This document shows, piece after piece, positions 1 through 46,512 of a DNA stretch of 64,000 nt. Source of the stretch: Rallus limicola (lineage: Eukaryota > Chordata > Aves > Gruiformes > Rallidae); the NCBI GenBank assembly GCA_022605955.1, contig JAKCOZ010000082.1, forward strand, positions 895,501-959,500, written 5' to 3'. How positions within the stretch are numbered: position 1 is the first letter of the stretch; the number at the start of each line of letters is the position of its first letter. The translations under genes and the position numbers were made by a program. The notes under the pieces are model-generated. The model did no database searches, had not been told where the DNA came from, and saw nothing but the letters and a program-made list of their open reading frames with translations.

Positions 1-926
1 ACTTCACAGAGCACCCCGGATCCCCTAGCCGTGCCCAGGGGGCTGATGAGCAGCCTCGTGTCGTTCCCCAGACCCAGCACCTTCCTGGGCCCCCCCGGCC
101 GGGAGACGAGGACGGGGCCAGTGACGTTACCCACAGCACAGAGCGGGCCGGGGGGGCCCTGGGGAGCCCCATGGGGCACCAGCACCATCACCCTGCTCCC
201 AGCGCTCCAGCTGTCTGCAGCAAGAAGAGGGGCTGCAGGGGTCTGAGGGGGGCACAGAGCAGGGATGGAGGGGAGGGAGGGCAGGGGGACATGGGGAAAG
301 GGGACAGGGCAGGTGGAAAGGGGGATGGAGGATGCTGAAGGAGGACAGGGGATGAGGGAGGCAGCAGGGGATGGGGGACATGGGGCAGACATGGGGGTCC
401 CACTCCCTAGCTATGTCGCCATCCTACCTCCCACTAACAGCGTGGTGCCATTGCTGAAATCCAGGTGTGAGGCAGCTACATACGCACACAGGTAGATGCC
501 GGTGTCATTGGGTTGGGCCTGGGTGATGCTCAGGGTGATTCTGCGCTTCTCGAACTGGCAAGAGAATCTCCCATTCCTCTCTGAGAGACAAGGCAGGACC
601 AGTTTGGGCTCCTTCCCGTCAACACGCCAGTACCAGGACACTTTGCCTTTACTCTCCATGTCCTTGCTGGCCTCGCAGTCGATGTTCACCTGCTCCCCAG
701 GCTGCACAACCAGGACGGGCTGGGGCTGGTGCAGCTTCAGCAGCGCTGCCGGGGCTGCAGGAACAAGTGTGGGCTCAGTTCCCCCTCCAGACTCAACCCC
801 CAGCCCCACCATCCCCCCTGCTCCCCCCCAGAAGAAGCCCAGATCTCTCCCTAAAATGCAGCCTGGCTACCCACCCAGGCAGAGCCACAGCAGCCCCGTG
901 GGGGCCAGCGTGTCCCTGGCTGCCAT
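1..926 (-). CDS. Minus-strand TCR-like VJ–C receptor, unit 1 (partial)
   Basis: Exons read on the minus strand: leader 875–926 (MAARDTLAPTGLLWLCL), V 428–754, and a C exon from 214 running off the left edge. All junctions have GT/AG and keep frame. The V domain has the first Cys (NIDC), WYW after CDR1, DTGIYLC before CDR3, and a fused J-like strand FSNGTTLLV. There is an extra Cys pair (VLPC and RFSC). The C domain lacks the Trp expected after its first Cys. Transmembrane and tail exons lie outside the window, so whether this copy is inhibitory or activating cannot be told. It lies head-to-head with the plus-strand gene starting at 1692. It is presumably a type I membrane protein of leukocytes. 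The structure is seen; the function is inferred from the complete copies. I do not recognise a named family. Confidence 0.8.
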
Positions 927-1691
927 CAGGGCCGGGGCTGTGTGGGGGAGTCTTCCTTCACCCTGGGTCAGCTGCAGCCGCACCCCCAGCACCCCTATGA
1001 CACCCTTCAAAGGACTCAAACCTGCAAAGCCCTTCCCAGCCCCCAGCCCTGCTGCTGCCTTTCCTGCTGCGGTTGGGCAGAGCGAGGCCTCGGCCAACCC
1101 AGCCACCCAAAACCCTCCCCGAGCCCCATTGCGGGCGGTGGGGGAAGGGGGTCGGTGTCAATACCCACGGCAGAAGCGACACAGCCCAGCAGCCAGGCTG
1201 ACCGCAGCCACCTGCGGCTCCAGCAAAGCCTCCGGCTGCTGCAGAAAGGCGCAAGGTCTGTACCAGGGACCCCTGAGAGAGACGTGCAGCGCTCGGCCGC
1301 CCACGCCGCGCTCCGGGGGCCGTTTCCAGGGGCTGCCAGGCAGGAGCCTGGGCAAATCCAGCCCCAGCACCCCCAGCGAGCCACGGCTGTGCCTTGGGGA
1401 GCAGAAGAATGCAGAGGAGCTGCTGGGAGAGACGGACAGGGGGCTGGTCCCTGGCACCCTCCACTGCCCCTCCCGGCATCACCCCGTGCTGGACCCAGTC
1501 CAGAAGGGTCCCGTAGCCGGGGGATGCCTGGCCAAACCGCCGCTTCCACCCCATCTCTGTCCCCCCCAGGCCTGGGAGGCCCCATGGCCAAAGGACGGGA
1601 TGACCCGTGGGGCTGGTGCCTCAGAGCCCCCCCAGCTCTCCCCAGCCAGGCCAGGAAAGAAGATCTCCCCAGCAGAGGGGTTGTGTCCAGC
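927..1691. promoter_or_regulatory. Divergent intergenic region, unit 1 (putative bidirectional promoter)
   Basis: This 765-bp spacer separates the start codons of the two divergent receptor genes. Its core (about 1010–1400) recurs almost unchanged in the other three units, while neighbouring coding exons differ more. An ETS-like TTTCCT (1060–1065) lies two bases from a RUNX-like TGCGGT (1068–1073), an arrangement known from T-cell and myeloid enhancers. The promoter role is inferred; I could not assign a TATA box or start site. Confidence 0.5.
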
Positions 1692-2997
1692 ATGTCCTAC
1701 GGGCTCCTGGGGACCCTCCTGCTCCTGCTGCCAGGTACGTGCCTGCTCCAGAAACATCCCAACCTGCTGGCATGTGCTCACTGGAGGGGTTGGGGGAGGT
1801 CTGTGTGTCCTAAAATACTGTAATGGGATCTGTTGGAAAGCCTGAATTGCAGAAACCCCAACTCAGAGCTGCTCCCCCTGTGCAGGAGAGGTCTGGGCAC
1901 AGGCAGGACGGGTCCAGCAAAGCCCAGGGCAGCTCTGGGTGCTCCCCGGACACACGGCGAAGATGAGTTGTCAAACCTGGGAGCACAGAAACTACATAGA
2001 CTGGTACAAGGAGAAGCCAGATGGCAGCTTGAACTGGATATACTGGAGCACGAATTCCTCTTACCTGGATGGAAGATACTCTGGGGGGATGAAATCAGAC
2101 CAGACATTTATCCTCACCATCAGCCTTGCACAGAGGGAGGACTCTGGGGTTTATTACTGCTGCTCCTATGGTGTGAAACCCATATTTGGGAGTGGGACCA
2201 GGCTGGTTGTGAGCAGTGAGTGTCACACGACAGCTGGGGACATCCCTGGGGAGGTTTGTGCCCCCCCCCCACACCCCGTTTCCCTTTTCAGATGCCACAG
2301 AGCCCCAGCTCTCCATCTTGGTGCAGGCCAGCACGGAGGAGCCCGGGCAGCCCCCAGCCACCTTCCCCCTGCTCTGCCACCTCCACGACATCCCTGAGGG
2401 CTGGGACACCGTGCGCTGGCAGCCCGGCGGGGAGGTGACTCCCGTGATGGCGGCGGCCCTGGATGAGCAGGGTGTCCTCAGCGCATGGAGCATCACCTGG
2501 GTGTTAGCCGAGCGCTGGGATGGGGCTGCGACGTGCACGGCCGAGAACAGGGGCGAGAACAGGAGCATCAACACCACCATCACCATAGAACGTTTGGAGG
2601 GTAATTAGTCCTGTCTCCCCCAGCCCCAAATTCCCCCACACCAACAGGCTTTAAACCTGCGCATCCCCCTTGCTGGGCCCTGACCCCCATCTGGGGGATG
2701 CTCGGCTCTCCAGAGGCACCAAGCCCAACCCTGCCCCTCTATTCCCTCTCCTTTCCCAGCACACACAGGTTCCTGCCCTTCCTGGCCACTGCCGCTGTCC
2801 CTGTCCTGCGTCTGCCTCCTTCTCCTGCTCCAGCTGATCATCCTGCTCTACAGACGGCATCTGGCCAGAGGTGACCCCCCCAGCACCCCCCTCACAGCCC
2901 CTTCGCCCTGACTCTCTCCTCACACCCTGCAGCCACCCACACGCCCACCCGTGAGACCCACTCGGGGGGTGAAACCGCTTCCTCCACCCCAGCCTGA
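1692..2997 (+). CDS. Plus-strand TCR-like VJ–C1 receptor, unit 1
   Basis: Exons 1692–1734, 1886–2215, 2292–2600, 2760–2870 and 2933–2997 join in frame to 285 residues. The start MSYGLLGTLLLLLPG is a signal peptide. The V domain (about residues 20–124) has KMSCQTW, DWYKEK, DSGVYYC and a fused J strand FGSGTRLVV. The C domain (125–227) is canonical C1-set, with LLCHLHD, a Trp 14 residues after that Cys, and ATC as the second Cys. A Cys (TGSC) stands just outside the transmembrane helix (about 235–257), which has one Gln and no charge. The tail is about 25 residues, rich in Thr and Ser, with no Tyr. V and J are contiguous with no recombination signal, so the receptor is germline-fixed. It probably pairs with the divergent minus-strand chain. 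No family name is recognised. Confidence 0.85.
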
Positions 2998-3003
2998 AAT
3001 AAA
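2998..3003 (+). terminator. Poly(A) signal of plus-strand receptor, unit 1
   Basis: AATAAA begins directly after the TGA stop codon, so the 3' untranslated region is very short. The same arrangement occurs at 9210–9215, 14292–14297 and 19624–19629 in the other plus-strand copies. Confidence 0.7.
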
Positions 3004-3104
3004 TTCATTTATTTCCAGTGACGTGACGCTGCTCGGGTGAGAACCCAACACCTGGGATTGAGTTCATTATTGAGTTAATTGGGGGGCTGGGGGGGGAAAC
3101 AACC

Positions 3105-3630
3105 CTGCGAGGCTGGGAACAGAGTGAAAGCCCTCTGCATCCCCAGCTCCCACCTGCAGCATCCCCAACGCGCTGGCGGCTGCTCGGGGAGACCAAAAGT
3201 CGGGGGTGAATCTGATCCAGGTGCCGGCTCACACTCGGCTCCGGCTGCCGGCAGCTCCCAGGCGCTGGGTGTCCCCCCAACACCCTCTTCGGCACAGCAC
3301 TGCATGTCCCCCGGGCCAGTCCCAGCCCTCCCCGTGGCAGGAGCAGCTCAGGAGCAGCCCGGCCCCTTCCCAAGCCCTCGGCGTCGGGCGCAGCGCTGGC
3401 TTCGCCACCACATCTCCCCCGTGGCCAGGCCGAGGGGCCGAGCTGTGCACAGCCAGCGCCCGCCAAGCTCCTGGCTGTGGTTTACCAGCAATGAGCGCCC
3501 CAGCGCCGGAAAGAATGCAAAAGCCCCGGGGAGCTGCCAAGGGCTCGCAGCGAGGGGGGACGGGACGAGCCAGCGCCGCGACACCGCCGCCTCGTGCCGC
3601 CAGCGCACGGCCCCGCAGCCGCCCCCTCAG
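3105..3630. repeat. Conserved spacer block, copy 1 of 3
   Basis: This GC-rich non-genic stretch recurs nearly base for base at about 9325–9860 and 14430–14950, downstream of the plus-strand genes of units 2 and 3. The unit 4 equivalent (about 19796–19900) is strongly diverged. Reading frames in it are open on several strands, as expected of GC-rich DNA, and none resembles a known protein. Recent unit duplication or gene conversion would explain the identity. Confidence 0.7.
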
Positions 3631-3631
3631 A

Positions 3632-4683
3632 TTTGGGGGGCCGCAGCACCTCCATCAGCCCCCTCATCCTGTGTTTTCCATTCCGGGGCCGTGGGGCTGG
3701 GAGCGGGGATGGAAATAACCCCTAGGAAGGGCAGCTCATCCACCCACCTCTCAGCTGACACCCGGCACTGCACGGAGCGGTGCAAACCCCACACGGGTGT
3801 TTTGGGGTTCCCTTCACGTGCGTCCTCAGCCCCTGCAGTAAAAACACCCTACGGCCTCCTGTCACCCCCCACGACTTCCGCAGGGATCCTGCTGCCACCG
3901 TCTGCGGGGGCGCGAGTCCTCGCCAAGAGATGACTCCGAGGGACCAGCTGCGCCTCAGTTTCCCTTTCAGACTGGCTTCCGGCCCTGACCACAGGGACGT
4001 GAGGCGATGCAGCCGAGAGACAGGGACAGCGGCCATCTCACCCACCCCTTCGGCCTCAGAGTCAAAGCAAGGTCATGGTGCAACACCTGCCTGCAGCCTG
4101 CTGGGCTTCACCTCTCAGAGCATCCCGGGATGCAGCACCCACCCATGGCTCCGCCACCCTCTTTTGGGTTTGCCTGGCAAGGTTTTGGCAGCGGTGGGGG
4201 GGCTTTTGGGGGGGGGGTTCTCCCAGAAGCTGCCAGAACCTTCCCCCCGGTCCCGCAGAGCCCACCCCAACCAGCTCCCAGACGCACCGAGCCCCACCGC
4301 TGCTGCCCAAGGCCCTGCCCACCAGAGATGGTGGTAGTGCCTCTCTGCTAATTGACCCCAAACCCCATTCCCATCCCCCTGTGATGCTGGCGGGGGAGGG
4401 AGAGATATCCTGTATATAGCTGACCCGGGAAGCAGGGAGGGGTGTGTGGAGCTGTTTGGAGGGTTGCCTTTGTTTCTCTTGCCCTGCTCTCTTTTGGCTG
4501 GGTAATAAAGGAGATACATTTAATTCCCTGCTCAGTCTGTTCAGCCCTGACAGGAATTGCTGCCCAATCTCTCCCTGTGCCCGTCTCAACCCCCAACCCT
4601 TTCCTTCCATCTCCCCTGCCCTGCCCAGCTGAGGAGGGGAGTGACCAAGAGGTTCCAGGGGTCGCACAGCTGTTGGGCAGCAC
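3632..4683. mobile_element. About 1-kb insertion private to unit 1, LTR-like at its right part
   Basis: Unit 2 has only about 200 bp between the conserved spacer block and the GGGCCTG minisatellite; unit 1 has about 1 kb here. Near 4412 there is a TATA-like TGTATATAG, and about 90 bp later an AATAAAG (4504) followed by a pyrimidine-rich stretch, the order expected in a retroviral LTR. No terminal repeats or target duplication could be fixed. It could instead be old unique sequence lost from the other units. Confidence 0.3.
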
Positions 4684-4699
4684 AGCTGCGATGTGTGAG

Positions 4700-5060
4700 G
4701 CTGGGGTGGGGAAAGGCTGGATGTGGCCAAGGGCCAGGGCAGCCCGAGGAACATCCCATGGGGCTGGGGTGGGAACTGGGGCCCTAGGGCCTGGAGCTGT
4801 GGACTGATGATGGGTTTAGAACTGAGGATGGGGCCTGGGGCTGAGGATGGGACCTGAGACTGGGGCCTTGGGGTGTAGGAATGGGCCTGGGCATGTGGCT
4901 CGGACTTCCAATGGGCCTGGGCATGACAACTGGGCCGAAGGACCTGAGGATGGGCCAGAGGAGGATGCTTGGGAGCCTGAAGAATGGGCATGGGCCTCTG
5001 GCCTGAGAATGGGCCTGAGCCTGGCAATAGGGCTGCGGCCTGGGGATGGGCTGGGGCTGC
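4700..5060. repeat. GGGCCTGAGGATG-type minisatellite, unit 1 spacer
   Basis: Short imperfect tandem units built on GGGCCTGGGGATG and GGGCCTGAGGATG. The same array occurs at about 10075–10450 and 15165–15530, at the same place in the other spacers, so it is part of the duplicated unit. Confidence 0.75.
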
Positions 5061-5301
5061 CAAGGCATGGGGCTTGAGCTGGGGAGGGGGCTGCCTGCCC
5101 TGGCTTCTTTCCTCCCCATCCCGCTCAAACCAGAAGGTGCTACAGATGCTGTGGGAGCCAGGAGCATAGGGGGGGGACCCTCACTGCACCTAAAAAATCT
5201 CTTCCGACACAGAGGGAGGGTGCGGGGTCTGCAGTCCTGCCCTGGGGACACACCGGACACACGGGGCCTTGGAGGCTGGACGCTGCCGAAGCCCAAAGCT
5301 C

Positions 5302-5307
5302 TTTATT
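5302..5307 (-). terminator. Poly(A) signal of minus-strand receptor, unit 2
   Basis: AATAAA on the minus strand, about 125 bp beyond the stop codon of the minus-strand gene. Equivalent sites are at 10687–10692 (unit 3) and 15761–15766 (unit 4). Confidence 0.7.
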
Positions 5308-5432
5308 TCACCCTGTTCAGCACAGCGGGGGCAGCCCCCCGGCGCCCCGGGTGTCTCAGGGGGATGCCGGGGGGGTGCGGGCAGGCAGGGATGAGCTCCG
5401 GGCTTGGGGGTGTCACCGTGTCCAGCTGTGGG

Positions 5433-7140
5433 TCACGGCCGGGGCCTCGCTGGGGCAGTGAAGATCAGCTGGGCGTAGTTCAGCTCTCCCTGCGGGGCAC
5501 GATGCCGTCAGAGCCCCCGCACCCCAATTTCCCCTCTGGCAGCAGCAGCGGGGCTGTGACCATCCCTTGCTGCCTGAGGTCCCCAAGCAGGGACACGCTG
5601 CCTCCTGCCAGCCCAGCCCGGGGACACCAGGGCTGCCCAGCCTCACCTCAGCCTCCTGTGACGCGGGGGGCTCCGTGGTCCTGGGTTGGGGGCCTGGAGG
5701 GGACAGAGCTGGGAGACATGTCCCCAGAGTATGGATGGAGAGGACAAAGGGGATGGGAGGGGATGGAGCAAGATGAGAGCAGGAGGGCATTAGGATAAAG
5801 AGGGAATAGGGAAGGAGGGGATTGAGATGAAGAGGGATCATCAGTGAAGGGGACACAGCGAGAGGGACAGGACAGTGGGGAGAGCAGGGCACATGGTGGG
5901 ACACCCCCCACACGTGCCACGCTCCTTACCCATCGGCCTGGTGCGGAGGAGGCAGCGGATGCTGAGGCAGATGCTGAGCAGCGGCAGCACCCCGGCCCCA
6001 GCCAGAACAGATGGTATGATCATGCAGTTGTCTGGGCAAGAGGGCCAAGCTCATTCTAATGTGCCCCAACAAACTCCCAACCTGTGGCCAGACCATCATA
6101 TCTGCCTCAGTTTCCTCACAGATGACCCAGCTGGGGGATGCTCCCTGTACTCACCCACATCCCTGAACAGCTCCAGGCTCCTGCGGATGGGGGACCCCGA
6201 GGCGTTGAATCGCACTTCACAGAGCACCCCGGATCCCCCGGCCGTGCCCAGGGGGCTGATGAGCAGCCTCGTGTCGTTCCCCAGCCCCAGCACCTTCCCA
6301 GGCCCCCCCGGCCGGGAGACGAGGACGGGGCCGTTGACATTACCCACGGCACAGACCGGGCCAGGGGGGCCCTGGGGAGCCCCATGGGGCGCCAGCACCA
6401 TCACCCTGCTCCCAGCGCTCCAGCTGTCTGCAGCAAGGAGAGGGGCTGCGGGGGGTCTGAGGGGGACACAGAGCAGGGATGGAGGGGAGGGAGGGCAGGG
6501 GGACATGGGGAAATGGGGACAGGGCAGGTGGAAAGGGGGATGGAGGATGCTGAAGGAGGACAGGGGATGAGGGAGGCAGCAGGATATGGGGGATAGGAGT
6601 GGCACCTGGGGGTCCCACTCCCTGGCCATGTCGCCATCCTACCTCCCACCACCAGCGTGGTGCTGCTGATGAAATCCAGGTTCCACACACTGTAATACGC
6701 ACACAGGTAGACGCCAGTGTCCTTGGGTTGGGCATGGGAGATGCTCAGGGTGACTCTGGGCTTCTTGAACTGGCAGGAGAATCTCCCTTTTCTCTCTGTC
6801 CCACAATCCAGGACCAGTTTGGGCTCCTTCCCTCCAACACGCCAGTACCAGGACACTTTGTCTTTACTCTCCATGTCCTCGCTGGCCTCGCAGTCGATGT
6901 TCACCTGCTCCCCGGGCTGCACAACCAGGACGGGCTGGGGCTGGTGCAGCCTCAGCAGCGCTGCCGGGGCTGCAGGAACAAGTGTGGGCTCGGTTCCCCC
7001 TCCAGACTCAACCCCCAGCCCCACCATCCCCCTCTGCTGCCCCCAGCAAAAGCCCAGAGACTCCCCAAAATGCAGCCTGGCTACCCACCCAGGCAGAGCC
7101 ACAGCAGCCTCACGGGGGCCAGCGAGTCCCTGGCTGCCAT
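5433..7140 (-). CDS. Minus-strand VJ–C receptor with ITIM, unit 2 (inhibitory form)
   Basis: Exons on the minus strand: 7089–7140, 6643–6969, 6155–6427, 5930–6031, 5647–5693 and 5433–5489. They join in frame to 285 residues. Signal peptide MAARDSLAPVRLLWLCL; V domain with NIDC, WYW, DTGVYLC and a degenerate J-like strand (LDFISSTTLVV); C domain with 41 residues between its cysteines and no core Trp, resembling TCR alpha. A Cys (DNC) precedes an uncharged transmembrane helix (IPSVLAGAGVLPLLSICLSI). The tail ends GELNYAQLIFTAPARPRP; LNYAQL fits the ITIM consensus (I/V/L/S-x-Y-x-x-L/V/I), so recruitment of SHP phosphatases is expected. It is divergent to the plus-strand gene at 7917. Structure is seen; inhibition is inferred from the motif. 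Confidence 0.87.
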
Positions 7141-7916
7141 CGGGGCCGGGGATGTGTGGAGGAGTCTTCCTTCACCCTGGGGCAGCTGCAGCCGCCCCCC
7201 AGCAGCCCACGAGGCCCTTCAAAGGACTCAAACCTGCAAAGCCCTTCCCAGCCCCCAGCCCTGCTGCTGCCTTTCCTGCTGCGGTTGGGCAGAGCGAGGC
7301 CTCGGCCAACCCAGCCACCCAAAACCCTCCCCGAGCCCCATTGCGGGCGGTGGGGGAAGGGGGTCGGTGTCAATACCCACGGCAGAAGCGACACAGCCCA
7401 GCAGCCAGGCTGACCGCAGCCACCTGCGGCTCCAGCAAAGCCTCCGGCTGCTGCAGAAAGGCGCAAGGTCTGTACCAGGGACCCCTGAGAGAGACGTGCT
7501 GCGCTCGGCCGCCCACGCCGCGCTCCGGGGGCCGTTTCCAGGGGCTGCCAGGCAGGAGCCTGGGCAAATCCAGCCCCAGCACCCCCAGCGAGCCACGGCT
7601 GTGCCTTGGGGAGCAGAAGAACGCGGGCACCACGCAGCCCAGGGCTGCTGGGAGATACGGGCAGGGTGCTGGTCCCTGGCACCCTCCACTGCCCCTCCCG
7701 GGATCACCCCGTGCTGGACCCAGCCCAGAAGGGTCCCGTCGCTGGGGGACAGCTGGCCAAACTGCTGCTTCCACCCCATCTCTGTCCCTCCCAGGCCTGG
7801 GAGGCCCCATGGCCAGAGGACGAGACAACCTATGGGGCTGGTGCCTCAGAGCCCCCCCAGCTCCCCCCAGCCTGGCCAGGAAAGAAGATCTCCCCAGCAG
7901 AGGGGTTGTGTCCAGC
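7141..7916. promoter_or_regulatory. Divergent intergenic region, unit 2 (putative bidirectional promoter)
   Basis: 776 bp between the start codons of the two chains. The core is nearly identical to that of unit 1. TTTCCT (7272–7277) and TGCGGT (7280–7285) form the same ETS/RUNX-like pair. Confidence 0.5.
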
Positions 7917-9209
7917 ATGTCCTACGGGCTCCTGGGGACCCTCCTGCTCCTGCTGCCAGGTACGTGCCTGCTCCAGAAACACCCCATCCCGATGGCATCT
8001 ACTCAGAGGGGGGTTGGCTCTTCCCCAAAACACTGTAATGGGATCTGTTGGAAAGCCTGAATTGCAGAAACCCCGACTCAGAGCTGTTCCCCCTGTGCAG
8101 GAGGGGTCTTAGCACAGGTGAAACGGATCCAGCAAAGCCCAGGGCAGCTCTGGGTGCTCCCCGGACACACGGTGAAGTTCAACTGTCACATCTCAGAGTA
8201 CAGATCCTACGTAGATTGGTACAAGGAGAAGGAGGATGGAAACTTGGTTTGGATTTACCGGAGTGCACATTACTCTTCTGCAAGTGGAAAATACTCGGGG
8301 AGGAACAATACAGGAAAGAATTTTTTCCTCGCCATCAGCCCTGCACAGAGGGAGGACTCTGGGGTTTATTACTGCAGCTACTTCAACACGCCCCTTGAGT
8401 TTGGGAGTGGGACCAGGCTGGTTGTGAGCAGTGAGTGTCACACGACAGCTGGGGACATCCCTGGGGAGGTTTGTGCCCCCCCCACACCCCGTTTCTCTTT
8501 TCAGATGCCGCTGAGCCACAGCTCTCCATCCTGGTGCCTGTCAGCACAGAGGAGCCTGGGCAGCCCCCAGCCACCTTCCCCCTGCTCTGCCACCTCCACG
8601 ACATCCCTGAGGGCTGGGACACCGTGCGCTGGCAGCCCGGCGGGGAGGTGACGCCCGTGATGGCGGCGGCCGTGGATGAGCAGGGTGTCCTCAGCGCATG
8701 GAGCATCACCTGGATGTTGGCCGAGCACTGGGATGGGGCTGTGATGTGCACGGCCGAGAACAGGGGCAAGAACAGGAGCATCAGTATCACCATCGGTAAG
8801 GGATGTGGGGAGGGTAATTAGTCCATTCTCCCCAGCCCCAAATTCCCCCACACCAACAGGCTTTAAACCTGCGCATCCCCCTTGCTGGGCCCCGACGCCC
8901 ATCTGGGGGATGCTCGGCTCTCCAGAGGCACCAAGCCCAACCCTGCCCCTCTATTCCCTCTCCTTTCCCAGCACACACAGGTTCCTGCCCTTCCTGGCCA
9001 CTGCCACTGTCCCTGTCCTGCGTCTGCCTCCTTCTCCTGCTCCAGCTGATCATCCTGCTCTACAGACGGCACCTGGCCAGAGGTGACCCCCCCAGCACCC
9101 CCCTCACAGCCCCTTCGCCCTGACTCTCTCCTCACACCCTGCAGCCACCCACACGCCCACCCGTGAGACCCACTCGGGGGGTGAAACCGCTTCCTCCACC
9201 CCAGCCTGA
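7917..9209 (+). CDS. Plus-strand TCR-like VJ–C1 receptor, unit 2
   Basis: Exons 7917–7959, 8101–8430, 8505–8813, 8972–9082 and 9145–9209 have the same lengths as the unit 1 gene and give 285 residues. The V domain is of a second class (KFNCHISEYRSYVDWYKEK, then CSYFNTPLEFGSGTRLVV), shared with unit 3 and unlike units 1 and 4. The C1 domain, membrane-proximal Cys and Tyr-free tail are as in unit 1. A base change near the end of the C exon creates a stronger in-frame donor (GTAAGG at 8796), so the exon may end 18 bp early at 8795. It pairs head-to-head with the ITIM gene of unit 2. Confidence 0.84.
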
Positions 9210-9324
9210 AATAAATTCATTTATTTCCAGTGACGTGACGCTGCTCGGGTGAGAACCCAACACCTGAGATTGAGTTCATTATTGAGTTAATTGGGGGGCT
9301 GGGGGGGGAAACAACCCTGCGAGG

Positions 9325-9860
9325 CTGGGAAAGTATTGAGGGGACAGAGTGAAAGCCCTCTGCATCCCCAGCTCCCACCTGCAGCATCCCCAACGCGCTG
9401 GCGGCTGCTCGGGGAGACCAAAAGTCGGGGCTGAATCTGATCCAGGTGCCGGCTCACACTCGGCTCCGGCTGCCGGCAGCTCCCAGGCGCTGGGTGTCCC
9501 CCCAACACCCTCTTCGGCACAGCACTGCATGTCCCCCGGGCCAGTCCCAGCCCTCCCCGTGGCAGGAGCAGCTCAGGAGCAGCCCGGCCCCTTCCCAAGC
9601 CCTCGGCGTCGGGCGCAGCGCTGGCTTCGCCACCACATCTCCCCCGTGGCCAGGCCGAGGGGCCGAGCTGTGCACAGCCAGCGCCCGCCAAGCTCCTGGC
9701 TGTGGTTTACCAGCAATGAGCGCCCCAGCGCCGGAAAGAATGCAAAAGCCCCGGGGAGCTGCCAAGGGCTCGCAGCGAGGGGGGACGGGACGAGCCAGCG
9801 CCGCGACACCGCCGCCTCGTGCCGCCAGCGCACGGCCCCGCAGCCGCCCCCTCAGATTTG
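9325..9860. repeat. Conserved spacer block, copy 2 of 3
   Basis: Near-identical to 3105–3630 and 14430–14950. No gene is seen in it. Confidence 0.7.
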
Positions 9861-10074
9861 GGGGTGACCGAGCGGCTGCGGGGGTCCCTGGCCCCCAGCC
9901 AGGGCCAGCCCCACAAGCGTCCCCTGGGCTGGCTCTCAGCTCCGCAGGGTGCTTTGTCCATCATTCGCAGCCCCGGGCTGGGATTCCTGACGTGTGGGGG
10001 GAACAAACCTTCCCCTGCTCCTGGGGGGCTCCAGCTGTGGGCTGGGGCTGGGCAGCCCAGCTGGGACGTGTGGG

Positions 10075-10450
10075 GCTGGGGTGGGGAAAGGCTGGAGGTG
10101 GCCAGGGGCCAAGCGTGGGGCTGGGGATGTGAACTGGGGCCTGGGGATGAGTTTGGACCTGAGGCTGAGGCCTGATGATGGTCTTAGGCCTGAGGATGGG
10201 GCCTTGGGGTGTAAGTATGGGCCTGGGGATCGAGCTGGGGACTTGGGGTGTAAGGATGGGCCTGGGAATGGGGCTGGCCCTTCCAATGGGCCTGGGCCTG
10301 AGGATGGGACCTGGGGGCCTGAGGATGGGCCTGAGGATGATGCTTGGGAGCCTGAAGAATGGGCCTGGGCCTCAGGCCTGAGGATGAACCTGAGCCTGGC
10401 AATAGAGCTGCAGCCTGGGGATGGGCTGGGGATGCCGCAGCATGGGGCTG
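10075..10450. repeat. GGGCCTGAGGATG-type minisatellite, unit 2 spacer
   Basis: Same tandem motif and position as the array at 4700–5060. Confidence 0.75.
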
Positions 10451-10831
10451 AAGCTGGCGAGGGGGCTGCCTGCCCTGACCCCTTTCCTCCCCATCCCTCT
10501 CAAACCAGAATGTGCTACAGATGTTGTGGAAGCCAGGCAGGGAGGGGGGACCCTCACTGCACCCAAAAATCTCTTCCGACACAGAGGGAGGGTGCAGGGT
10601 CTGCAGTCCCATCGCAGGGACAGGCCCTGGGGACACACCGGACACACGGGGCCATGGAGGCTGGACGCTGACAAATCCCAAAGCTCTTTATTTCACCCTG
10701 CTCAGCACAGCGGGGGCAGCCCCCCGGCACCCCAGGGGTCTCAGGGGGATGCCAGGGGGTGCGGGCAGACAGGGACGAGCTCCGGGTTTGGAGGTGTCAC
10801 CACATCCAGCTGTGGGTCAGGGCTGGTGATT

Positions 10832-12220
10832 TCAGATCCCAGGTTGGGGGCCTGGAGGGAAAGAGCCAGGAGATACGTTCCCAGTGTGGGGATGAGGGGA
10901 CAGAGGGGATTGAGGGGCATGAGGGAAGGAGGGGATTAGGATGGTGGAACAGGACAGTGGGGAGAGCAGGGCACATGGTGGGACACCCCTCACATGTGCC
11001 ACGCGCCTTACCCATCGGCCTGGTGCCGAAGAGGCAGCGGATGCTGAGGCAGATGCTGAGCAGCAGCAGCAGCCTGACCACGGTCAGGATCAAGACAAAG
11101 GGGCTGATCACGCAGCTGTCTGGGGGAGAGGGGCCGGTCCGTCCCAATGTACCCCCACAAATGTTTGGGCCAGAGTGTCACCTCTGCCTCCATTTCCCAC
11201 GGATGACCCAGCTGGGGGATGCTCCCTGTACTCACCCACATCCCTGAACAGCTCCAGGCTCCTGCGGATGGGGGACCCCGAGGCGTTGAATCGCACTTCA
11301 CAGAGCACCCCGGATCCCCCGGCCATGCCCAGGGGGCTGATGAGCAGCCTCATGTCGTTCCCCAGCCCCAGCACCTTCCCGGGCCCCCCCGGCCGGGAGA
11401 CGAGGACGGGGCCAGTGGTGTTACCCACGGCACAGACCGGGCCGGGGGGGTCCTGGGGAGCCCCATGGGGCGCCAGCACCATCACCCTGCTCCCAGCGCT
11501 CCAGCTGTCTGCAGCAAGGAGAGGGGCTGTGGGGGGGCTGAGAGAGGCACAGAGCAGGGAGGGAGGGGAGGGAGGGCAGGGGGACATGGGGAAATGGGGA
11601 CAGGGCAGGTGGAAAGGGGGATGGAGGATGCTGAAGGAGGACAGGGGATGAGGGAGGCAGCAGGATATGGGGGATAGGAGTGGTACATGGGGGTCCCACT
11701 CCCTGGCCATGTCACCATCCTACCTCCCACCACCAGCGTGGTGCTGCTGATGAAATCCAGGTTCCACACACTGTAATACGCACACAGGTAGATGCCGGTG
11801 TCCTTGGCTTGGGCGTGGGTGATGCTCAGGGTGACTCTGGGCTTCTTGAACTGGCAGGAGAATCTCCCTTTTCTCTCTGTCCCACAATCCAGGACCAGTT
11901 TGGGCTCCTTCCCGTCAACACGCCAGTACCAGGACACTTTGCTTTTAGTCTCCATGTCCTCGCTGGCCTCACAGTCGATGTTCACCTGCTCCCCGGGCTG
12001 CACAACCAGGACGGGCTGGGGCTGGTGCACCCTCAGCAGCGCTGCCGGAGCTGCAGGAACAAGTGTGGGCTCTGTTCCCCCTCCAGGCTCACCCCTAGCC
12101 CATCCATCCCTCCCTGCTGCCCCCAGAAAAAGCCCAGAGCCTCCCCAAAATGCAGCCTGGCTACCCACCCAGGCAGAGCCACAGCAGCCCCGTGGGGGCC
12201 AGCGAGTCCCTGGCTGCCAT
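10832..12220 (-). CDS. Minus-strand VJ–C receptor with TM arginine and no ITIM, unit 3 (activating form)
   Basis: Exons on the minus strand: 12169–12220, 11724–12050, 11236–11508, 11012–11119 and 10832–10851. They join in frame to 259 residues. Leader, V and C domains match the unit 2 gene closely (J-like LDFISSTTLVV). The transmembrane exon is different: a Cys (DSC) is followed by FVLILTVVRLLLLLSICLSI, with an Arg (codon 11073–11075) inside the membrane. The tail stops after PMGPQPGI because about 240 bp carrying the ITIM exon are gone. A basic residue in the membrane plus a short tail is the hallmark of receptors that use ITAM adaptors such as FcR-gamma or DAP12. That partner is inferred, not seen. 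Confidence 0.85.
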
Positions 12221-12986
12221 CAGGGCCGGGGCTGTGTGGGGGAGTCTTCCTCTGCCCTGGGTCAGCTGCAGCCGCCCCCCAGCACCCCTATGACACCCTT
12301 CAAAGGGACTCAAACCTGCAAAGCCCTTCCCAGCCCCCAGCCCTGCTGCTGCCTTTCCTGCTGCGGTTGGGCAGAGCGAGGCCTCGGCCAACCCAGCCAC
12401 CCAAAACCCTCCCCGAGCCCCATTGCGGGCGGTGGGGGAAGGGGGTCGGTGTCAATACCCACGGCAGAAGCGACACAGCCCAGCAGCCAGGCTGACCGCA
12501 GCCACCTGCGGCTCCAGCAAAGCCTCCGGCTGCTGCAGAAAGGCGCAAGGTCTGTACCAGGGACCCCTGAGAGAGACGTGCTGCGCTCGGCCGCCCACGC
12601 CGCGCTCCGGGGGCCGTTTCCAGGGGCTGCCAGGCAGAAGCCTGGGTAAATCTGGCCCCAGCACCCCCAGCGAGCCACGGCTGTGCCTTGGGGAGCAGAA
12701 GAACGCAGAGGAGCTGCTGGGAGAGACGGGCAGGGGGCTGGTCCCTGGCACCCTCCACTGCCCCTCCCGGCATCACCCCGTGCTGGACCCAGCCCAGAAG
12801 GGTCCCGTCGCTGGGGGACGGCTGGCCAAACTGCCGCTTCCACCCCATCTCTCTCCCCCCCCAGGCCTGGGAGGCCCCATGGCCAGAGGACGGGATGACC
12901 CATGGGGCTGGTGCGTCAGAGTCGCCCCAGCTCCCCCCAGCCTGGCCAGGAAAGAAGATCTCCCCAGCAGAGGGGTTGTGTCCAGC
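12221..12986. promoter_or_regulatory. Divergent intergenic region, unit 3 (putative bidirectional promoter)
   Basis: 766 bp between the start codons. It has the same conserved core, with TTTCCT at 12354–12359 and TGCGGT at 12362–12367. Confidence 0.5.
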
Positions 12987-14291
12987 ATGTCCTACGGGCT
13001 CCTGGGGACCCTCCTGCTCCTGCTGCCAGGTACGTGCCTGCTCCAAAAACACCCCAACCCGCTGGCATGTGCTCACTGGGGGAGTTGGGGGGGAGTGTGT
13101 GTCCTAAAATACTGTAGTGGGATCTGTTGGAAAGCCTGAATTGCAGAAACCCCAACTCAGAGCTGCTCCCCCCCATGCAGGAGGGGTCTTAGCACAGGTG
13201 AGACGGGTCCAGCAAAGCCCAGGGCAGCTCTGGGTGCTCCCCGGACACACGGCGAAGTTCAACTGTCACATCTCAGAGTACAGATCCTACGTAGATTGGT
13301 ACAAGGAGAAGGAGGATGGAAACTTGGTTTGGATTTACCGGAGTGCACATTACTCTTCTGCAAGTGGAAAATACTCGGGGAGGAACAATACAGGAAAGAA
13401 TTTTTTCCTCGCCATCAGCCCTGCACAGAGGGAGGACTCTGGGGTTTATTACTGCAGCTACTTCAACATGCCCCTTGAGTTTGGGAGTGGGACCAGGCTG
13501 GTTGTGAGCAGTGAGTGTCACACGACAGCTGGGGACATCCCTGCGGAGGTTTGTACCCCCCCACACACCCCGTTTCCCTTTTCAGATGCCACTGAGCCCC
13601 AGCTCTCCATCCTGGTGCCCTTTGGCACAGAGGAGCCTGGGCAGCCCCCAGCCACCTTCCCCCTGCTCTGCCACCTCCACGACATCCCTGAGGGCTGGGA
13701 CACCGTGCGCTGGCAGCCCAGCGGGGAGGTGACGCCCGTGATGGCGGCGGCCGTGGATGAGCAGGGTGTCCTCAGCGCATGGAGCATCACCTGGGTGTCG
13801 GCCGAGCGCTGGGACGGGGCTGTGACGTGCATGGCCGAGAACAGGGGCAAGAACAGGACCATCAACACCACCATCACCATAGAACGTTTGGAGGGTAATT
13901 AGTCCTGTCTCCCCCAGCCCCAAATTCCCCCACACCAACAGGCTTTAAACCTGCGCGTCCCCCTTGCTGGGCCCTGACCCCCATCTGGGGGATGCTCGGC
14001 TCTCCAGAGGCACCAAGCCCAACCCTGCCCCTCTATTCCCTCTCCTTTCCCAGCACACACAGGTTCCTGCCCTTCCTGGCCGCTGCCACTCTCCCTGTCC
14101 TGTGTCTGCCTCCTTCTCCTGCTCCAGCTGATCATCCTGCTCTACAGACGGAATCTGGCCAGAGGTGACCCCCCCGGCACCCCCCTCACAGCCCCTTCGC
14201 CCTGACTCTCTCCTCACACCCTGCAGCCACCCACACGCCCACCCGTGAGACCCACTCGGGGGGTGAAACCGCTTCCTCCACCCCAGCCTGA
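12987..14291 (+). CDS. Plus-strand TCR-like VJ–C1 receptor, unit 3
   Basis: Exons 12987–13029, 13181–13510, 13586–13894, 14054–14164 and 14227–14291 give 285 residues with exon lengths identical to the other plus-strand copies. The V domain is almost the same as in unit 2, with a CDR3-like change from FNTPLEF to FNMPLEF. The C domain is canonical C1, with NRT and NTT glycosylation sequons, a Cys before the uncharged transmembrane helix, and a Tyr-free tail. It is divergent to the activating-type minus-strand gene, so the same plus chain type faces both signalling types. Confidence 0.85.
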
Positions 14292-14429
14292 AATAAATTC
14301 ATTTATTTCCAGTGACGTGACGCTGCTCGGGTGAGAAACAAACAACTGGGATTGAGTTCATTATTGAGTTAATTGAGGGCGTCGGGGGGGGGAAGCAACC
14401 CTGTGAAGCTGGAAAAGTATTGAGGGGAC

Positions 14430-14950
14430 AGAGTGAAAGCCCTCTGCATCCCCAGCTCCCACCTGCAGCATCCCCAACGCGCTGGCGGCTGCTCGGGGAG
14501 ACCAAAAGTCGGGGCTGAATCTGATCCAGGTGCCGGCTCACACTCGGCTCCGGCTGCCGGCAGCTCCCAGGCGCTGGGTGTCCCCCCAACACCCTCTTCG
14601 GCACAGCACTGCATGTCCCCCGGGCCAGTCCCAGCCCTCCCCGTGGCAGGAGCAGCTCAGGAGCAGCCCGGCCCCTTCCCAAGCCCTCGGCGTCGGGCGC
14701 AGCGCTGGCTTCGCCACCACATCTCCCCCGTGGCCAGGCCGAGGGGCCGAGCTGTGCACAGCCAGCGCCCGCCAAGCTCCTGGCTGTGGTTTACCAGCAA
14801 TGAGCGCCCCAGCGCCGGAAAGAATGCAAAAGCCCCGGGGAGCTGCCAAGGGCTCGCAGCGAGGGGGGACGGGACGAGCCAGCGCCGCGACACCGCCGCC
14901 TCGTGCCGCCAGCGCACGGCCCCGCAGCCGCCCCCTCAGATTTGGGGGTG
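14430..14950. repeat. Conserved spacer block, copy 3 of 3
   Basis: Near-identical to 3105–3630 and 9325–9860. No gene is seen in it. Confidence 0.7.
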
Positions 14951-15164
14951 ACCGAGCGGCTGCGGGGGTCCCTGGCCCCCAGCCAGGGCCAGCCCCCCAA
15001 GCGTCCCCTGGGCTGGCTCTCAGCTCCGCAGGGTGCTTTGTCCGTGTCAGTCGCAGCCCCGGGCTGGGATTCCTGACGTGTGGGGGGAACAAACCTTCCC
15101 CTGCTCCTGGGGGGCTCCAGCTGTGGGCTGGGGCTGGGCAGCCCAGCTGGGATGTGTGGGGCTG

Positions 15165-15530
15165 GGGTGGGGAAAGGCTGGAGGTGGCCAAGGGCCAAGC
15201 ATGGGGCTGGGGATGTGAACTGGGGGCCTGGGGATGAGTTTGGACCTGAGGCTGGGGCCTGATGATGGTCTTAGGCCTGAGGATGGGGCCTTGGGGTGTA
15301 AGTATGGGCCTGGGGATCGAGCTGGGGACTTGGGGTGTAAGGATGGGCCTGGGAATGGGGCTGGCCCTTCCAATGGGCCTGGGCCTGAGGATGGGACCTG
15401 GGGGCCTGAGGATGGGCCTGAGGATGATGCTTGGGAGCCTGAAGAATGGGCCTGGGCCTCAGGCCTGAGGATGGGCCTGAGCCTGGCAATAGAGCTGCAG
15501 CCTGGGATGGGCTGGGGATGCCGCAGCACA
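15165..15530. repeat. GGGCCTGAGGATG-type minisatellite, unit 3 spacer
   Basis: Same tandem motif and position as at 4700–5060 and 10075–10450. Confidence 0.75.
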
Positions 15531-15890
15531 GGGCTCGAGCTGGGGAGGGGGCTGCCTGCTGCCTGACCCCTTTCCTTCCCATCCCTCTCAAACCAGAAGG
15601 TGCTACAGATGCTGTGGAAGCCAGGCATGGAGGGGGACCCTCACTGCACCCAAAAATCTCTTCCGACACAGAGGGAGGGTGCGGGGTCTGCAGTCCTGCC
15701 CTGGGGACACACCGGACACACGAGGCCATGGAGGCTGGACGCTGCCGAAGCCCAAAGCTCTTTATTTCACCCTGCTCAGCACAGCGGGGGCAGCCCCCCA
15801 GCACCCCAGGGGTCTCAAGGAGATGCTGGGGGGTGCGGGCAGGCAGGGACGAGCTCTGAACTTGGGGGTGTCACCGTGTCCAGCTGTGGG

Positions 15891-17555
15891 TCACGGCCGG
15901 GGCCTCGTTGGGGCAGTGAAGATCAGCTGGGCGTAGTTCAGCTCTCCCTACGGGGCACGATGCCATCAGAGCCCCCGCACCCCAATTTCCCCTCTGGCAG
16001 CAGCAGCGGGGCTGTGACCATCCCCTGCTGCCTGCGGTCCCCGAGCAGGGACACGCTGCCTCCAGCCAGCCCAGCCCGGGAACACCGGGGCTGCCCAGCC
16101 TCACCTCAGCCTTCCGTGACGCGGGGGGCTCCGTGGTCGCGGGTTGGGGGCCTGGGGGGGACACAGCTGGGAGACATGTCCCCAGAGTGGGGATGGAGGG
16201 AACAGAGGGGATGGAGGGGGATGGGGAAGAAGGGGATTGGGATGAAGGGGGATCGGCAGTGAAGGGGACACAGCGAGAGTAACAGGACCGTGGGGAGAGC
16301 AGGGCACATGGTGGGACACCCCCCACACGTGCCACGCTCCTTACCCATTGGCCTGGTGCGGAGGAGGCAGCGGATGCTGAGGCAGATGCTGAGCAGCAGC
16401 AGCACCCCGGCCCCAGCCAGGACAGAGATGAGGGGGGTGATCATGGAGCAGCCTGGGGAAGAGGGGCTGGATCGTCCTAATGTGCCCCAACAAACATTAG
16501 GGGCAGACAGTCCCCTCTGCCTCCATTTCCCACGGGTGACCCAGCTGGGGGATGCTCCCTGTACTCACCCACATCCCTGAACAGCTCCAGGCTCCTGCGG
16601 ATGGGGGACCCCGAGGCGTTGAATTGCACTTCACAGAGCACCCCGGATCCCCCGGCCCTGCCCAGGGGGCTGATGAGCAGCCTCGTGTCGTTCCCCAGCC
16701 CCAGCACCTTCCCGGGCCCCCCCGGCCGCGAGACGAGGACGGGGCCGTTGACGTTACCCACGGCACAGACCGGGCCAGGGGGGCCCTGGGGAGCCCCATG
16801 GGGCACCAGCACCATCACCCTGCTCCCAGCGCTCCAGCTGTCTGCAGCAAGGAGAGGGGCTGTGGGGGTTTGAGGGGGGCACAGAGCAGGGAGGGAGGGG
16901 AGGGAGGGCAGGGGGACATGGGGAAAGGGGGACAGGGCAGGTGGAGAGGGGGATGGAGGATGCTGAAGGAGGACAGGGGATGAGGGTGCCAGCAGGAGAT
17001 GGGGGACATGAACCGGACATGTGGGTCCCACTCCCTGGCCATGTCGCCATCCTACCTCCCACCACCAGCGTGGTGCCACTGCCAAAATCCAGGTGCCTCA
17101 CACTGTAATACGCACAGAGGTAGATGCCAGTGTCCTTGGCTTGGGCCTCGGTGATGCTCAGGGTGACTCTGGGCTTCTTGAACTGGCAGGAGATTCTCCC
17201 ATTTGTCTCTGTCCCACAATCCAGGACCAGTTTGGGCTCCTTCCCTCCAACACGCCAGTACCAGAACACTTTGCTTTTAGTCTCCATGTCCTCGCTGGCC
17301 TCGCAGTCGATGTTCACCTGCTCCCCGGGCTGCACAACCAGGACGGGCTGGGGCTGGTGCAGCCTCAGCAGCGCTGCCGGGGCTGTGGGAACAAGAGTGG
17401 GCTCAGTTCCCCCTCCAGGCTCAACCCCCAGCCCTGCCATCCCGCTCCGCTCCCCCCCAGCAAAAGCCCAGATCTCTCCCAAAAACACAGCCTGGCTACC
17501 CACCCAGGCAGAGCCACAGCAGCCCCGTGGGGGCAAGCAAGTCCCTGGCTGCCAT
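15891..17555 (-). CDS. Minus-strand VJ–C receptor with ITIM, unit 4 (inhibitory form)
   Basis: Exons on the minus strand: 17504–17555, 17056–17382, 16569–16841, 16345–16452, 16105–16151 and 15891–15947. They join in frame to 287 residues. The V domain ends LCAYYSVRHLDFGSGTTLVV, the only minus-strand copy here with an intact FGxG J motif. The C domain is the short form without the core Trp. The membrane exon reads GCSMITPLISVLAGAGVLLLL, uncharged and with the membrane-proximal Cys. The tail ends GELNYAQLIFTAPTRPRP, with ITIM LNYAQL at 15924–15941. Compared with unit 2 the transmembrane exon is two codons longer. It is head-to-head with the plus-strand gene at 18319. Function is inferred as inhibitory. 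Confidence 0.87.
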
Positions 17556-18318
17556 CGGGGCCGGGGATGTGTGGAGGAGTCTTCCTTCACCCTGGGGCAG
17601 CTGCAGCCGCCCCCCAGCAGCCCACGAGGCCCTTCAAAGGACTCAAACCTGCAAAGCCCTTCCCAGCCCCCAGCCCTGCTGCTGCCTTTCCTGCTGCGGT
17701 TGGGCAGAGCGAGGCCTCGGCCAACCCAGCCACCCAAAACCCTCCCCGAGCCCCATTGCGGGCGGTGGGGGAAGGGGGTCGGTGTCAATACCCACGGCAG
17801 AAGCGACACAGCCCAGCAGCCAGGCTGACCGCAGCCACCTGCGGCTCCAGCAAAGCCTCCGGCTGCTGCAGAAAGGCGCAAGGTCTGTACCAGGGACCCC
17901 TGAGAGAGACGTGCTGCGCTCGGCCGCCCACGCCGCGCTCCGGGGGCCGTTTCCAGGGGCTGCCAGGCAGGAGCCTGGGCAAATCCAGCCCCAGCACCCC
18001 CAGCGAGCCACGGCTGTGCCTTGGGGAGCAGAAGAACACAGAGGAGCTGCTGGGAGAGACGGGCAGGGGGCTGGTCCCTGGCACCCTCCACTGCCCCTCC
18101 CGGCATCACCCCGTGCTGGACCCAGCCCAGAAGGGTCCCGTCGCTGGGGGACGGCTGGCCAAACCGCCGCTTCCACCCCATCTCTGTCCCTCCCAGGCCT
18201 GGGAGGCCCCATGGCCAGAGGACGGGATGACCCGTGGGGCTGGTGCCTCAGAGCCCCCCCAGCTCTCCCCAGCCTGGCCAGGAAAGAAGATCTCCCCAGC
18301 AGAGGGGTTGTGTCCAGC
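17556..18318. promoter_or_regulatory. Divergent intergenic region, unit 4 (putative bidirectional promoter)
   Basis: 763 bp between the start codons, with the conserved core and TTTCCT (17687–17692) next to TGCGGT (17695–17700). Confidence 0.5.
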
Positions 18319-19623
18319 ATGTCCTATGGGCTCCTGGGGACCCTCCTGCTCCTGCTGCCAGGTACGTGCCTGCTCCAGAAACACCCCAACCTGCTGGTAT
18401 GTGCTCACTAGAGGGGTTGGGGGAGGTCTGTGTGTCCTAAAATACTGTAATGGGATCTGTTGGAAAGCCTGAATTGCAGAAACCCCAACTCAGAGCTGCT
18501 CCCCCTGTGCAGGAGGGGTCTGGGCACAGGCAGGACGGGTCCAGCAAAGCCCGGGGCAGCTCTGGGTGCTCCCTGGACACATGGCGAAGATGAGTTGTCA
18601 AACCTGGGAGCACAGAACCTACATAGACTGGTACAAGGAGAAGCCAGACGGCAGCTTGAACTGGATATACTGGAGCACGAATTCCTCTTACCCAGATGGA
18701 AGATACTCTGGGGGGAAGAAATCAGACCAGACATTTATCCTCACCATCAGCCCTGCACAGAGGGAGGACTCTGGGGTTTATTACTGCAGTTCCTCCGGAA
18801 TCTCCCCCGTATTTGGGAGTGGGACCAGGCTGGTTGTGAGCAGTGAGTGTCACACAACAGCTGGGGACATCCCTGGGGAGGTTTGTGCCCCCCCACACAC
18901 CCCCTTTCCCTTTTCAGATGCCACTGAGCCCCAGCTCTCCATCCTGGTGCCCGTCGGCACAGAGGAGCCTGGGCAGCCCCCAGCCACCTTCCCCCTGCTC
19001 TGCCACCTCCACGACATCCCTGAGGGCTGGGACACCGTGCGCTGGCAGCCCGGCGGGGAGGTGACGCCCGTGATGGCGGCGGCCGTGGATGAGCAGGGTG
19101 TCCTCAGTGCATGGAGCATCACCTGGGTGTCGGCCGAGCACTGGGATGGGGCTGCGACGTGCATAGCTGAGAACAGGGGCAAGAACAGGAGCATCAACAC
19201 CACCATCACCATAGAACGTTTGGAGGGTAATTAGTCCTGTCTCCCCCAGCCCCAAATTCCCCCACACCAACAGGCTTTAAACCTGCGCGTCCCCCTTGCT
19301 GGGCTCTGACCCCCATCTGGGGGATGCTTGGCTCTCCAGAGGCACCAAGCCCAACCCTGCCCCTCTATTCCCTCTCCTTTCCAAGCACACACAGGTTCCT
19401 GCCCTTCCTGGTTGCTGCTGCTGTCCCTGTCCTGCGTCTGCCTCCTTCTCCTGCTCCAGCTGATCATCCTGCTCTACAGATGGCATCTGGCCAGATGTGA
19501 CCCCCCCAGCACCCCCCTCACAGCCCCTTCGCCCTGACTCTCTCCTCACACCCTGCAGCCACCCACACGCCCACCCGTGAGACCCACTCGGGGGGTGAAA
19601 CCGCTTCCTCCACCCCAGCCTGA
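18319..19623 (+). CDS. Plus-strand TCR-like VJ–C1 receptor, unit 4
   Basis: Exons 18319–18361, 18513–18842, 18918–19226, 19386–19496 and 19559–19623 give 285 residues. The V domain belongs to the unit 1 class (KMSCQTWEHRTYIDWYKEK; CSSSGISPVFGSGTRLVV). The C1 domain, membrane-proximal Cys and Tyr-free tail are conserved. Two splice sites differ from the other copies: the acceptor before the transmembrane exon is CCAAG instead of CCCAG, and the donor after it is AGAT|GTGACC instead of AGAG|GTGACC. If the donor fails, the protein reads into the intron and ends a few residues later in TAPSP. This is the last unit; the array ends near 19680. Confidence 0.82.
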
Positions 19624-19679
19624 AATAAATTCATTTATTTCCAGTGACGTGACGCTGCTCGGGTGAGAACCCAACACCT

Positions 19680-20117
19680 GGGATTGTAAAATTTTTCTCA
19701 AAAAATAAAATGTCCTCCACGTTTCTCTGGGTGGGGTATGTGTGAAAAAAAACACTTCAAGGCGAGTAAATACACTTTTCCGGTGTGAGGGGAGGTGTGT
19801 GGTGGTGCAAGCAGTGCTGCAGCCCATCTCACATCTACTGCATCCCCTAAGTGCTCGGAGCACCCAAAAGTTGAAGGTAAATCTCATCCAGGTGCTGGCT
19901 TGTGCCTGTCCCTCCTTCATCTCTCTCTTAGCTGTCCCAGTCCCCAAAGGTTTTTTGGGTTTTGTGCCAGTGCTGCTCTTCCTGGTGTTGTGTGTCTCCT
20001 CTCCGTGCTGATACACTGCTGCTGCAGCACGCACAGTTATGTCATTCTACGTTGTTTTCCCCCGTTGCTGGTAAAGACACAGTCTCTAGGGCGTTATGGT
20101 TTGCTGTTGCTATTTAT
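19680..20117. other. Right boundary of the receptor array
   Basis: Similarity to the other units stops at about 19685. A diverged relic of the conserved spacer block can be followed at about 19796–19900. No gene is seen. Confidence 0.5.

Positions 20118-43333: not shown

Positions 43334-46512
<3,179 letters not shown>

Follow-up and report, generated by a model that had tools for sequence, protein, structure and literature searches.

What kind of receptor is encoded by a row of gene pairs whose members look like T-cell receptor (TCR) or immunoglobulin (Ig) chains, with their variable and joining segments already fused in the germline? This question is raised by the left end of a 64,000-nucleotide stretch of the genome of Rallus limicola (assembly GCA_022605955.1, contig JAKCOZ010000082.1, positions 895,501 to 959,500; hereafter, the window), where positions 1-19640 hold four tandem head-to-head units. 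Each unit contains a plus-strand and a minus-strand gene for a chain with a joined variable and J-like region (VJ), a constant (C) domain and a transmembrane (TM) segment, as a previous sequence-only reading had proposed. Based on the analyses that follow, we consider it probable that these genes specify surface receptors of two chains, TCR-like and non-rearranging, which form a small family and are used as paired receptors.

The units follow each other at about 6.2, 5.1 and 5.3 kb (Table 1). Plus-chain start codons lie at 1692, 7917, 12987 and 18319, and those of the minus chains at 926, 7140, 12220 and 17555, with the paired genes pointing away from each other and with gaps of 765, 776, 766 and 763 bp in units 1 to 4, just as previously reported (763-776 bp). 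The plus-gene exon lengths described as common to all four units, namely 43/330/309/111/65, are possible in 4/4 window units, with open frames and GT/AG borders, and an alternative in-frame GTAAGG donor is found 18 bases upstream in exon 3 of the plus genes of units 2, 5 and 6, the latter two belonging to a second array. Minus genes have exons of 52/327/273/108/47/57 in those units that carry an immunoreceptor tyrosine-based inhibitory motif (ITIM), with a membrane exon of 102 in unit 2, and of 52/327/273/108/20 in units 3 and 6. Seven of the genes are complete within positions 1-19640, as claimed, but the minus gene of unit 1 is not: its C exon spans base 1 of the window, and its later exons, left of the window, were read from stretch L009.

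In both chains the V domain and the J-like strand are encoded within one exon, and there is one V exon and one C exon per gene. The V exons of both chains match Pfam V-set (7e-16 and 2e-13, using unit 1 as query), and the C exons, when searched alone against Pfam, gave no match for either chain; C domains have two cysteines in both chains of all six units. The J-like strand has the canonical sequence FGSGTRLVV in 6/6 plus chains of the R. limicola genome, so that the fused J-like strand previously ascribed to every chain stands in full for the plus chains, and for 1/6 minus chains. Because VJ is in one exon and no site resembling a recombination signal sequence was found, a rearranging TCR or Ig locus could be ruled out, the latter search (positions 1-20000, CAC fixed, up to 4/16 mismatches) being a weak test, with 0 sites found and 0.4 expected by chance in shuffles.

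The split that would give these receptors their sign is found in the minus chain. First, the minus chains of units 1, 2, 4 and 5 (4/6) have an uncharged membrane segment followed by a tail with GELNYAQL, which includes the ITIM LNYAQL, the motif being defined as (S/I/V/L)xYxx(I/V/L) in the available part of PMC2442602. Second, units 3 and 6 have lost about 225 bp by deletion, comprising the last part of the tail exon, the next intron and the ITIM exon, so that the tail reads RTRPMGPQPGI or RTRPMGPQPGN behind the membrane segment ISPFVLILTVVRLLLLLSICLSI, with an arginine inside. Third, the V domains of units 2 (ITIM) and 3 (arginine) are identical at 93.5% (101/108) and 96.3% (105/109) in the two chains, which makes them the most alike among all 15 unit pairs in both chains; their C domains are 94.4% and 87.5% alike, and their membrane segments 61.8%. 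At the level of sequence, this is the paired inhibitory/activating pattern, namely, an ITIM in some members, no ITIM and a basic membrane residue in others, and near-identical ectodomains (units 2 and 3). The ITIM units would thus recruit SHP-type phosphatases and inhibit, and units 3 and 6 would recruit an adaptor of the DAP12, FcR-gamma or CD3-zeta type and activate, with units 2 and 3 probably recognizing the same or a similar ligand with opposite sign.

It could be argued that only the ITIM units function, and that decay is under way in units 3 and 6, in which the ITIM exon was lost and the membrane arginine is incidental. After all, the activating reading comes down to one deletion plus one residue, and the plus chain of unit 5 has already lost its start codon. 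However, open frames and splice sites are intact in both chains of units 3 and 6, the arginine membrane segment is alike at 33/36 residues between these units, across two arrays, and membrane arginine without ITIM is also present in crane and duck/goose models. We therefore regard such decay as quite improbable.

The same split can be followed in relatives of the minus chain, whose ITIM position reads LTYAQL, LQYAQL or LTYTQL in duck, goose, gull, crane and hawk; in P0107, from Phalacrocorax carbo, it reads LNCAQL, with a cysteine for the ITIM tyrosine. Among 40 models whose membrane segment could be read (34 from the database and six of our own, 24 further database models being unreadable), 11 are charged without ITIM, 3 charged with ITIM, 21 uncharged with ITIM and 5 uncharged without ITIM. 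The association gives a Fisher p of 0.0005 (0.007 for the 30 unique models, 0.005 when our six are left out), values to be taken only as a guide because the models are related, some tails are annotation artefacts, and three of the charged models, P0088, P0095 and P0096, have their arginine at the outer edge only.

We then asked what the V domains say about the pairing of the two chains. Position 44, at the V-V contact, is Gln in aligned Ig V domains, Glu in 72/73 plus chains and Arg in 46/53 minus chains, and these opposite residues suggest a plus/minus heterodimer. As a control, other V exons of this genome offered a readable V in only 3/7 non-family loci (L001-L005, L007 and L008), with Q, W and Q, which are too few. 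The model for the plus chain of a crane orthologue supports a VJ-C fold similar to that of light chains or TCR, and the minus V alone was modelled well, with a TCR-V-like fold. When Foldseek alone is used with the plus model, antibody chains come out on top, so that fold does not settle between TCR-like and antibody-like; Pfam C1-set is matched by 1/50 plus homologues (9.6e-6, P0072, from the turtle). Most likely, the plus (VJ and C1-like) and minus (TCR-V-like VJ and C) V domains of each unit would pair as V domains do in antibodies or TCR, Glu-Arg taking the place of Gln-Gln at the contact. We infer that both chains would be co-expressed from one divergent spacer in some immune cell type. 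The sequence-only reading had included neither this charge pair, nor the ITIM/arginine split, nor the second array.

A search for relatives, as proposed earlier for the window chains, found homologues of both chains in many bird orders. The plus chain of unit 4 retrieved 78 proteins, of which 72 carry a species name, 71 from birds and one from a turtle; the top identities are with rails (71-83% in Porphyrio and Atlantisia, covering 40-65% of the chain), and no passerine, parrot or falcon was seen among the species names of these matches. The minus chain retrieved at least 37 proteins, all from birds, and its profile, for which the best 7997 candidates were scored, at least 57, of which the 53 with a species name are all avian. 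Database labels for these relatives include 'uncharacterized', 'M1-specific T cell receptor beta chain-like' and 'titin-like'. In nine species, homologues of the two chains are on contigs of identical size, and in Athene and Accipiter their gene numbers are adjacent or close; read in this way, linkage of plus and minus genes is retained across bird orders. These homologues, the linkage and the single VJ exon support the earlier proposal that birds have a multigene family of germline-joined receptors, each encoded by two genes. Two database contigs are most simply taken as spliced transcripts (cDNA) of other birds, given their small size and joined exons: P0056 (1275 bases), with an exon-joined plus chain of 306 aa, and P0130 (1303 bases), in which the minus V is joined directly to the membrane and ITIM exons. 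Frames of the minus chain that skip the C exon, from V to membrane exon, were observed in P0130, P0131 and P0132, two of them from mallard.

Whether this family already has a name bears on its interpretation, as the earlier statement that it had none is now doubtful. The nearest named family is PRARP of chicken, two non-rearranging, VJ-joined genes of the immunoglobulin superfamily cited, in the parts available, in PMC10751288 and PMC11599192, and its initials suggest that it is the family of Fu et al. 2019 (J Immunol). The R. limicola genes, likened to it by description only, may belong to the same family. It is thus conceivable, though in our view unlikely, that we are dealing with an expansion of PRARP in which chains act singly, as monomers or homodimers, mainly to inhibit, and gene pairing is a by-product of duplication. 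The references of PMC10751288 present the two chicken genes as a novel family, PMC11599192 has PRARP among VJ-joined members of the superfamily, again in the parts available, and the inhibitory side finds support in the ITIM being the commonest tail (4/6) and in TEYxxV of ostrich and some galliform plus chains. Conversely, plus/minus linkage is retained across bird orders, the V-V contact has conserved opposite charges, and PMC10751288, as far as available, counts PRARP as one of the VJ genes 'in the MHC' (major histocompatibility complex), whereas the window adjoins ADAR1 and CHRNB2. With regard to plus-chain tails, those ending in TEYxxV, similar to an ITIM or an immunoreceptor tyrosine-based switch motif, occur in P0056, P0057, P0059 and P0066 (including ostrich, guineafowl and a quail), and are absent from window plus chains.

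The four-unit array described earlier stands for the window, but it is not the whole family. The minus-chain C exon has six matches in the genome (1.395 Gb; 9/9 candidates scored), namely, the four of the window and two at C82:511463 and 516625 of the same contig, which belong to head-to-head units 5 and 6 of a second array, in opposite orientation and about 385 kb from the first. Long matches between the arrays are 91-94% identical, which means that they are not one haplotype present twice. APH1A-like exons were found just past the outer minus gene of the window array (L009, about 5728-6522; PDB match), and beyond that of the second array (C82, about 517.7k, 3' of unit 6) there is what we take, by eye, to be the first exon of an APH1A-like gene. 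That such a gene adjoins both arrays suggests duplication of a block including APH1A. The plus genes of units 5 and 6 read through, apart from the start codon of unit 5, and frames are complete in 11/12 genes.

It could also be that the locus is a functionless relic, surviving by chance, or partly a duplicate made during assembly, given that the second array is inverted and 0.4 Mb from the first. The extent of divergence between arrays speaks against the latter, and the number of complete frames, the homologues across birds and in a turtle, and the exon-joined frames of P0056 and P0130, which are likely cDNA, against the former; we find this possibility highly improbable.

We also compared divergence across the units, which would have been duplicated whole. 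Mean DNA identity between units is 0.863 (minus) and 0.826 (plus) for V exons, 0.95 for C exons and 0.969 for the spacers; introns measured are 0.88-0.94 identical, except for minus-gene intron 3, with 0.846, V exons being otherwise less alike. The ratio of nonsynonymous to synonymous rates (dN/dS) for minus and plus chains, respectively, is 0.83 and 0.70 in V loops, 0.83 and 0.60 in the whole V, and 0.62 and 0.40 in C. Since silent sites, too, vary more within the V loops, as segment exchange predicts, such exchange may account for their divergence as well as selection does.

Several of our observations weigh against a charge-paired, two-chain receptor family with opposing signals. First, dN/dS is below 1 even in the V loops, and thus gives no support to positive selection there. 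Second, the minus chain departs from expectation: among the six R. limicola chains its J-like strand is canonical in that of unit 4 alone (FGSGTTLVV), GxG being broken in 5/6; the model of its C domain has a predicted local distance difference test score below 50 and is unusable; and the core Trp position of its C exon is Arg or Gln in 6/6 R. limicola units, with Trp in 15/17 aligned relatives. Third, no galliform or ostrich minus chain is among the matches listed, in a word-based search that may miss them. Fourth, unit 6, of the arginine type, lacks a closely similar ITIM counterpart in either array; the plus chain of unit 5 (C82, about 509991, L011) has AGG at its start codon, the sole broken start among the twelve genes; the 3 charged models that retain an ITIM (two with arginine at the outer edge only) and the 5 uncharged models without one do not follow the split; and some duck/goose models without ITIM resemble splice or annotation variants.

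Comparison with known systems places the proposed two-chain receptors between categories. NITRs of bony fish likewise have a germline V and J-like strand, a clustered multigene organization, ITIM forms, and forms without ITIM that have a membrane arginine; in the available part of PMC2442602, whose main text has 'heterodimer' and 'head-to-head' 0 times each, they have an I-type second domain, in which six cysteines are conserved. The R. limicola chains were not assigned to NITRs because their C-type domain has two, not six, cysteines. UrIg of sharks, MHC-linked and an elasmobranch Ig-like gene according to the available part of PMC10751288, is also a non-rearranging VJ-C1 gene, likened by description only. 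With TCR and Ig light chains our plus chain shares VJ-C anatomy and fold, and the minus V a TCR-V-like fold; the differences are the single VJ exon, Glu/Arg for Gln at position 44, and an ITIM in the minus tail. In KIR, LILR, SIRP, CHIR and CD300, too, inhibitory and activating ends are found behind ectodomains that are nearly identical. These receptors bind with a single chain, whereas here the binding face would be built by two co-encoded VJ chains. The ectodomain of SIRP is V-C1-C1, from which our genes are set apart by having a single V exon and a single C exon each. Head-to-head VJ-C pairs with ITIM and arginine forms are not described among the matches listed from the open-licence PMC literature.

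In more general terms, we tentatively propose, as something that may well prove otherwise, that birds keep a germline-encoded, charge-locked two-chain receptor of TCR-like build, made by two genes from one spacer, in inhibitory and activating versions, with signalling ends on one chain and V pairs kept together. If so, this would be a living example of a two-chain, antigen-receptor-like molecule that works without rearrangement, uniting the two-chain VJ-C architecture of rearranging receptors with the inhibitory/activating switch of innate paired receptors. One could then test in a living animal what use there is for a two-chain receptor without RAG, and a receptor family that is unnamed or misnamed in databases would be recognized in many birds, both wild and farmed.

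Table 1. Coordinates of the paired receptor genes and their spacers in the window.
Feature	Position	Strand	Details
Unit 1 plus chain	1692..2997	+	exons 1692-1734, 1886-2215 (VJ), 2292-2600 (C), 2760-2870 (TM), 2933-2997 (tail, without tyrosine)
Unit 1 minus chain, part in window	1..926	-	exons 875-926, 428-754 (VJ), C exon, which ends at 214 and crosses base 1; ITIM type, with its TM, tail and ITIM exons in L009
Unit 1 divergent spacer, 765 bp	927..1691	.	GC 0.69, CpG observed/expected 0.39
Unit 2 plus chain	7917..9209	+	exons 7917-7959, 8101-8430, 8505-8813, 8972-9082, 9145-9209
Unit 2 minus chain	5433..7140	-	exons 7089-7140, 6643-6969 (VJ), 6155-6427 (C), 5930-6031 (TM, uncharged), 5647-5693, 5433-5489 (ITIM LNYAQL)
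Unit 2 ITIM exon	5433..5489	-	GELNYAQLIFTAPARPRP
Unit 3 plus chain	12987..14291	+	exons 12987-13029, 13181-13510, 13586-13894, 14054-14164, 14227-14291
Unit 3 minus chain	10832..12220	-	exons 12169-12220, 11724-12050 (VJ), 11236-11508 (C), 11012-11119 (TM, central Arg), 10832-10851 (short tail, the ITIM exon being deleted)
Unit 3 TM exon	11012..11119	-	CVISPFVLILTVVRLLLLLSICLSI, arginine in membrane segment
Unit 4 plus chain	18319..19623	+	exons 18319-18361, 18513-18842, 18918-19226, 19386-19496, 19559-19623
Unit 4 minus chain	15891..17555	-	exons 17504-17555, 17056-17382 (VJ), 16569-16841 (C), 16345-16452 (TM, uncharged), 16105-16151, 15891-15947 (ITIM)
Divergent spacers, units 2-4	7141-7916, 12221-12986, 17556-18318

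The plus strand of the unit 1 spacer has no TATAAA or TATATA. To the right of the array the window contains ADAR1 (Z-alpha exon at 24558-26009) and then CHRNB2 (43903-45135), a region which we take to correspond to human 1q21, presumably MHC-paralogous. Further along, at 49508-52364, there is what we take to be a UBE2Q1-like gene, a piece of which had no match in a PDB search. Left of ADAR1, at 23641-24502, a degenerate tandem repeat is readable on the minus strand. Outside the window, long repetitive reading frames were observed in L022, L023 and L010 (C82, about 865-877k), which by eye we assume to resemble repeats of the epidermal (loricrin-like) gene cluster.

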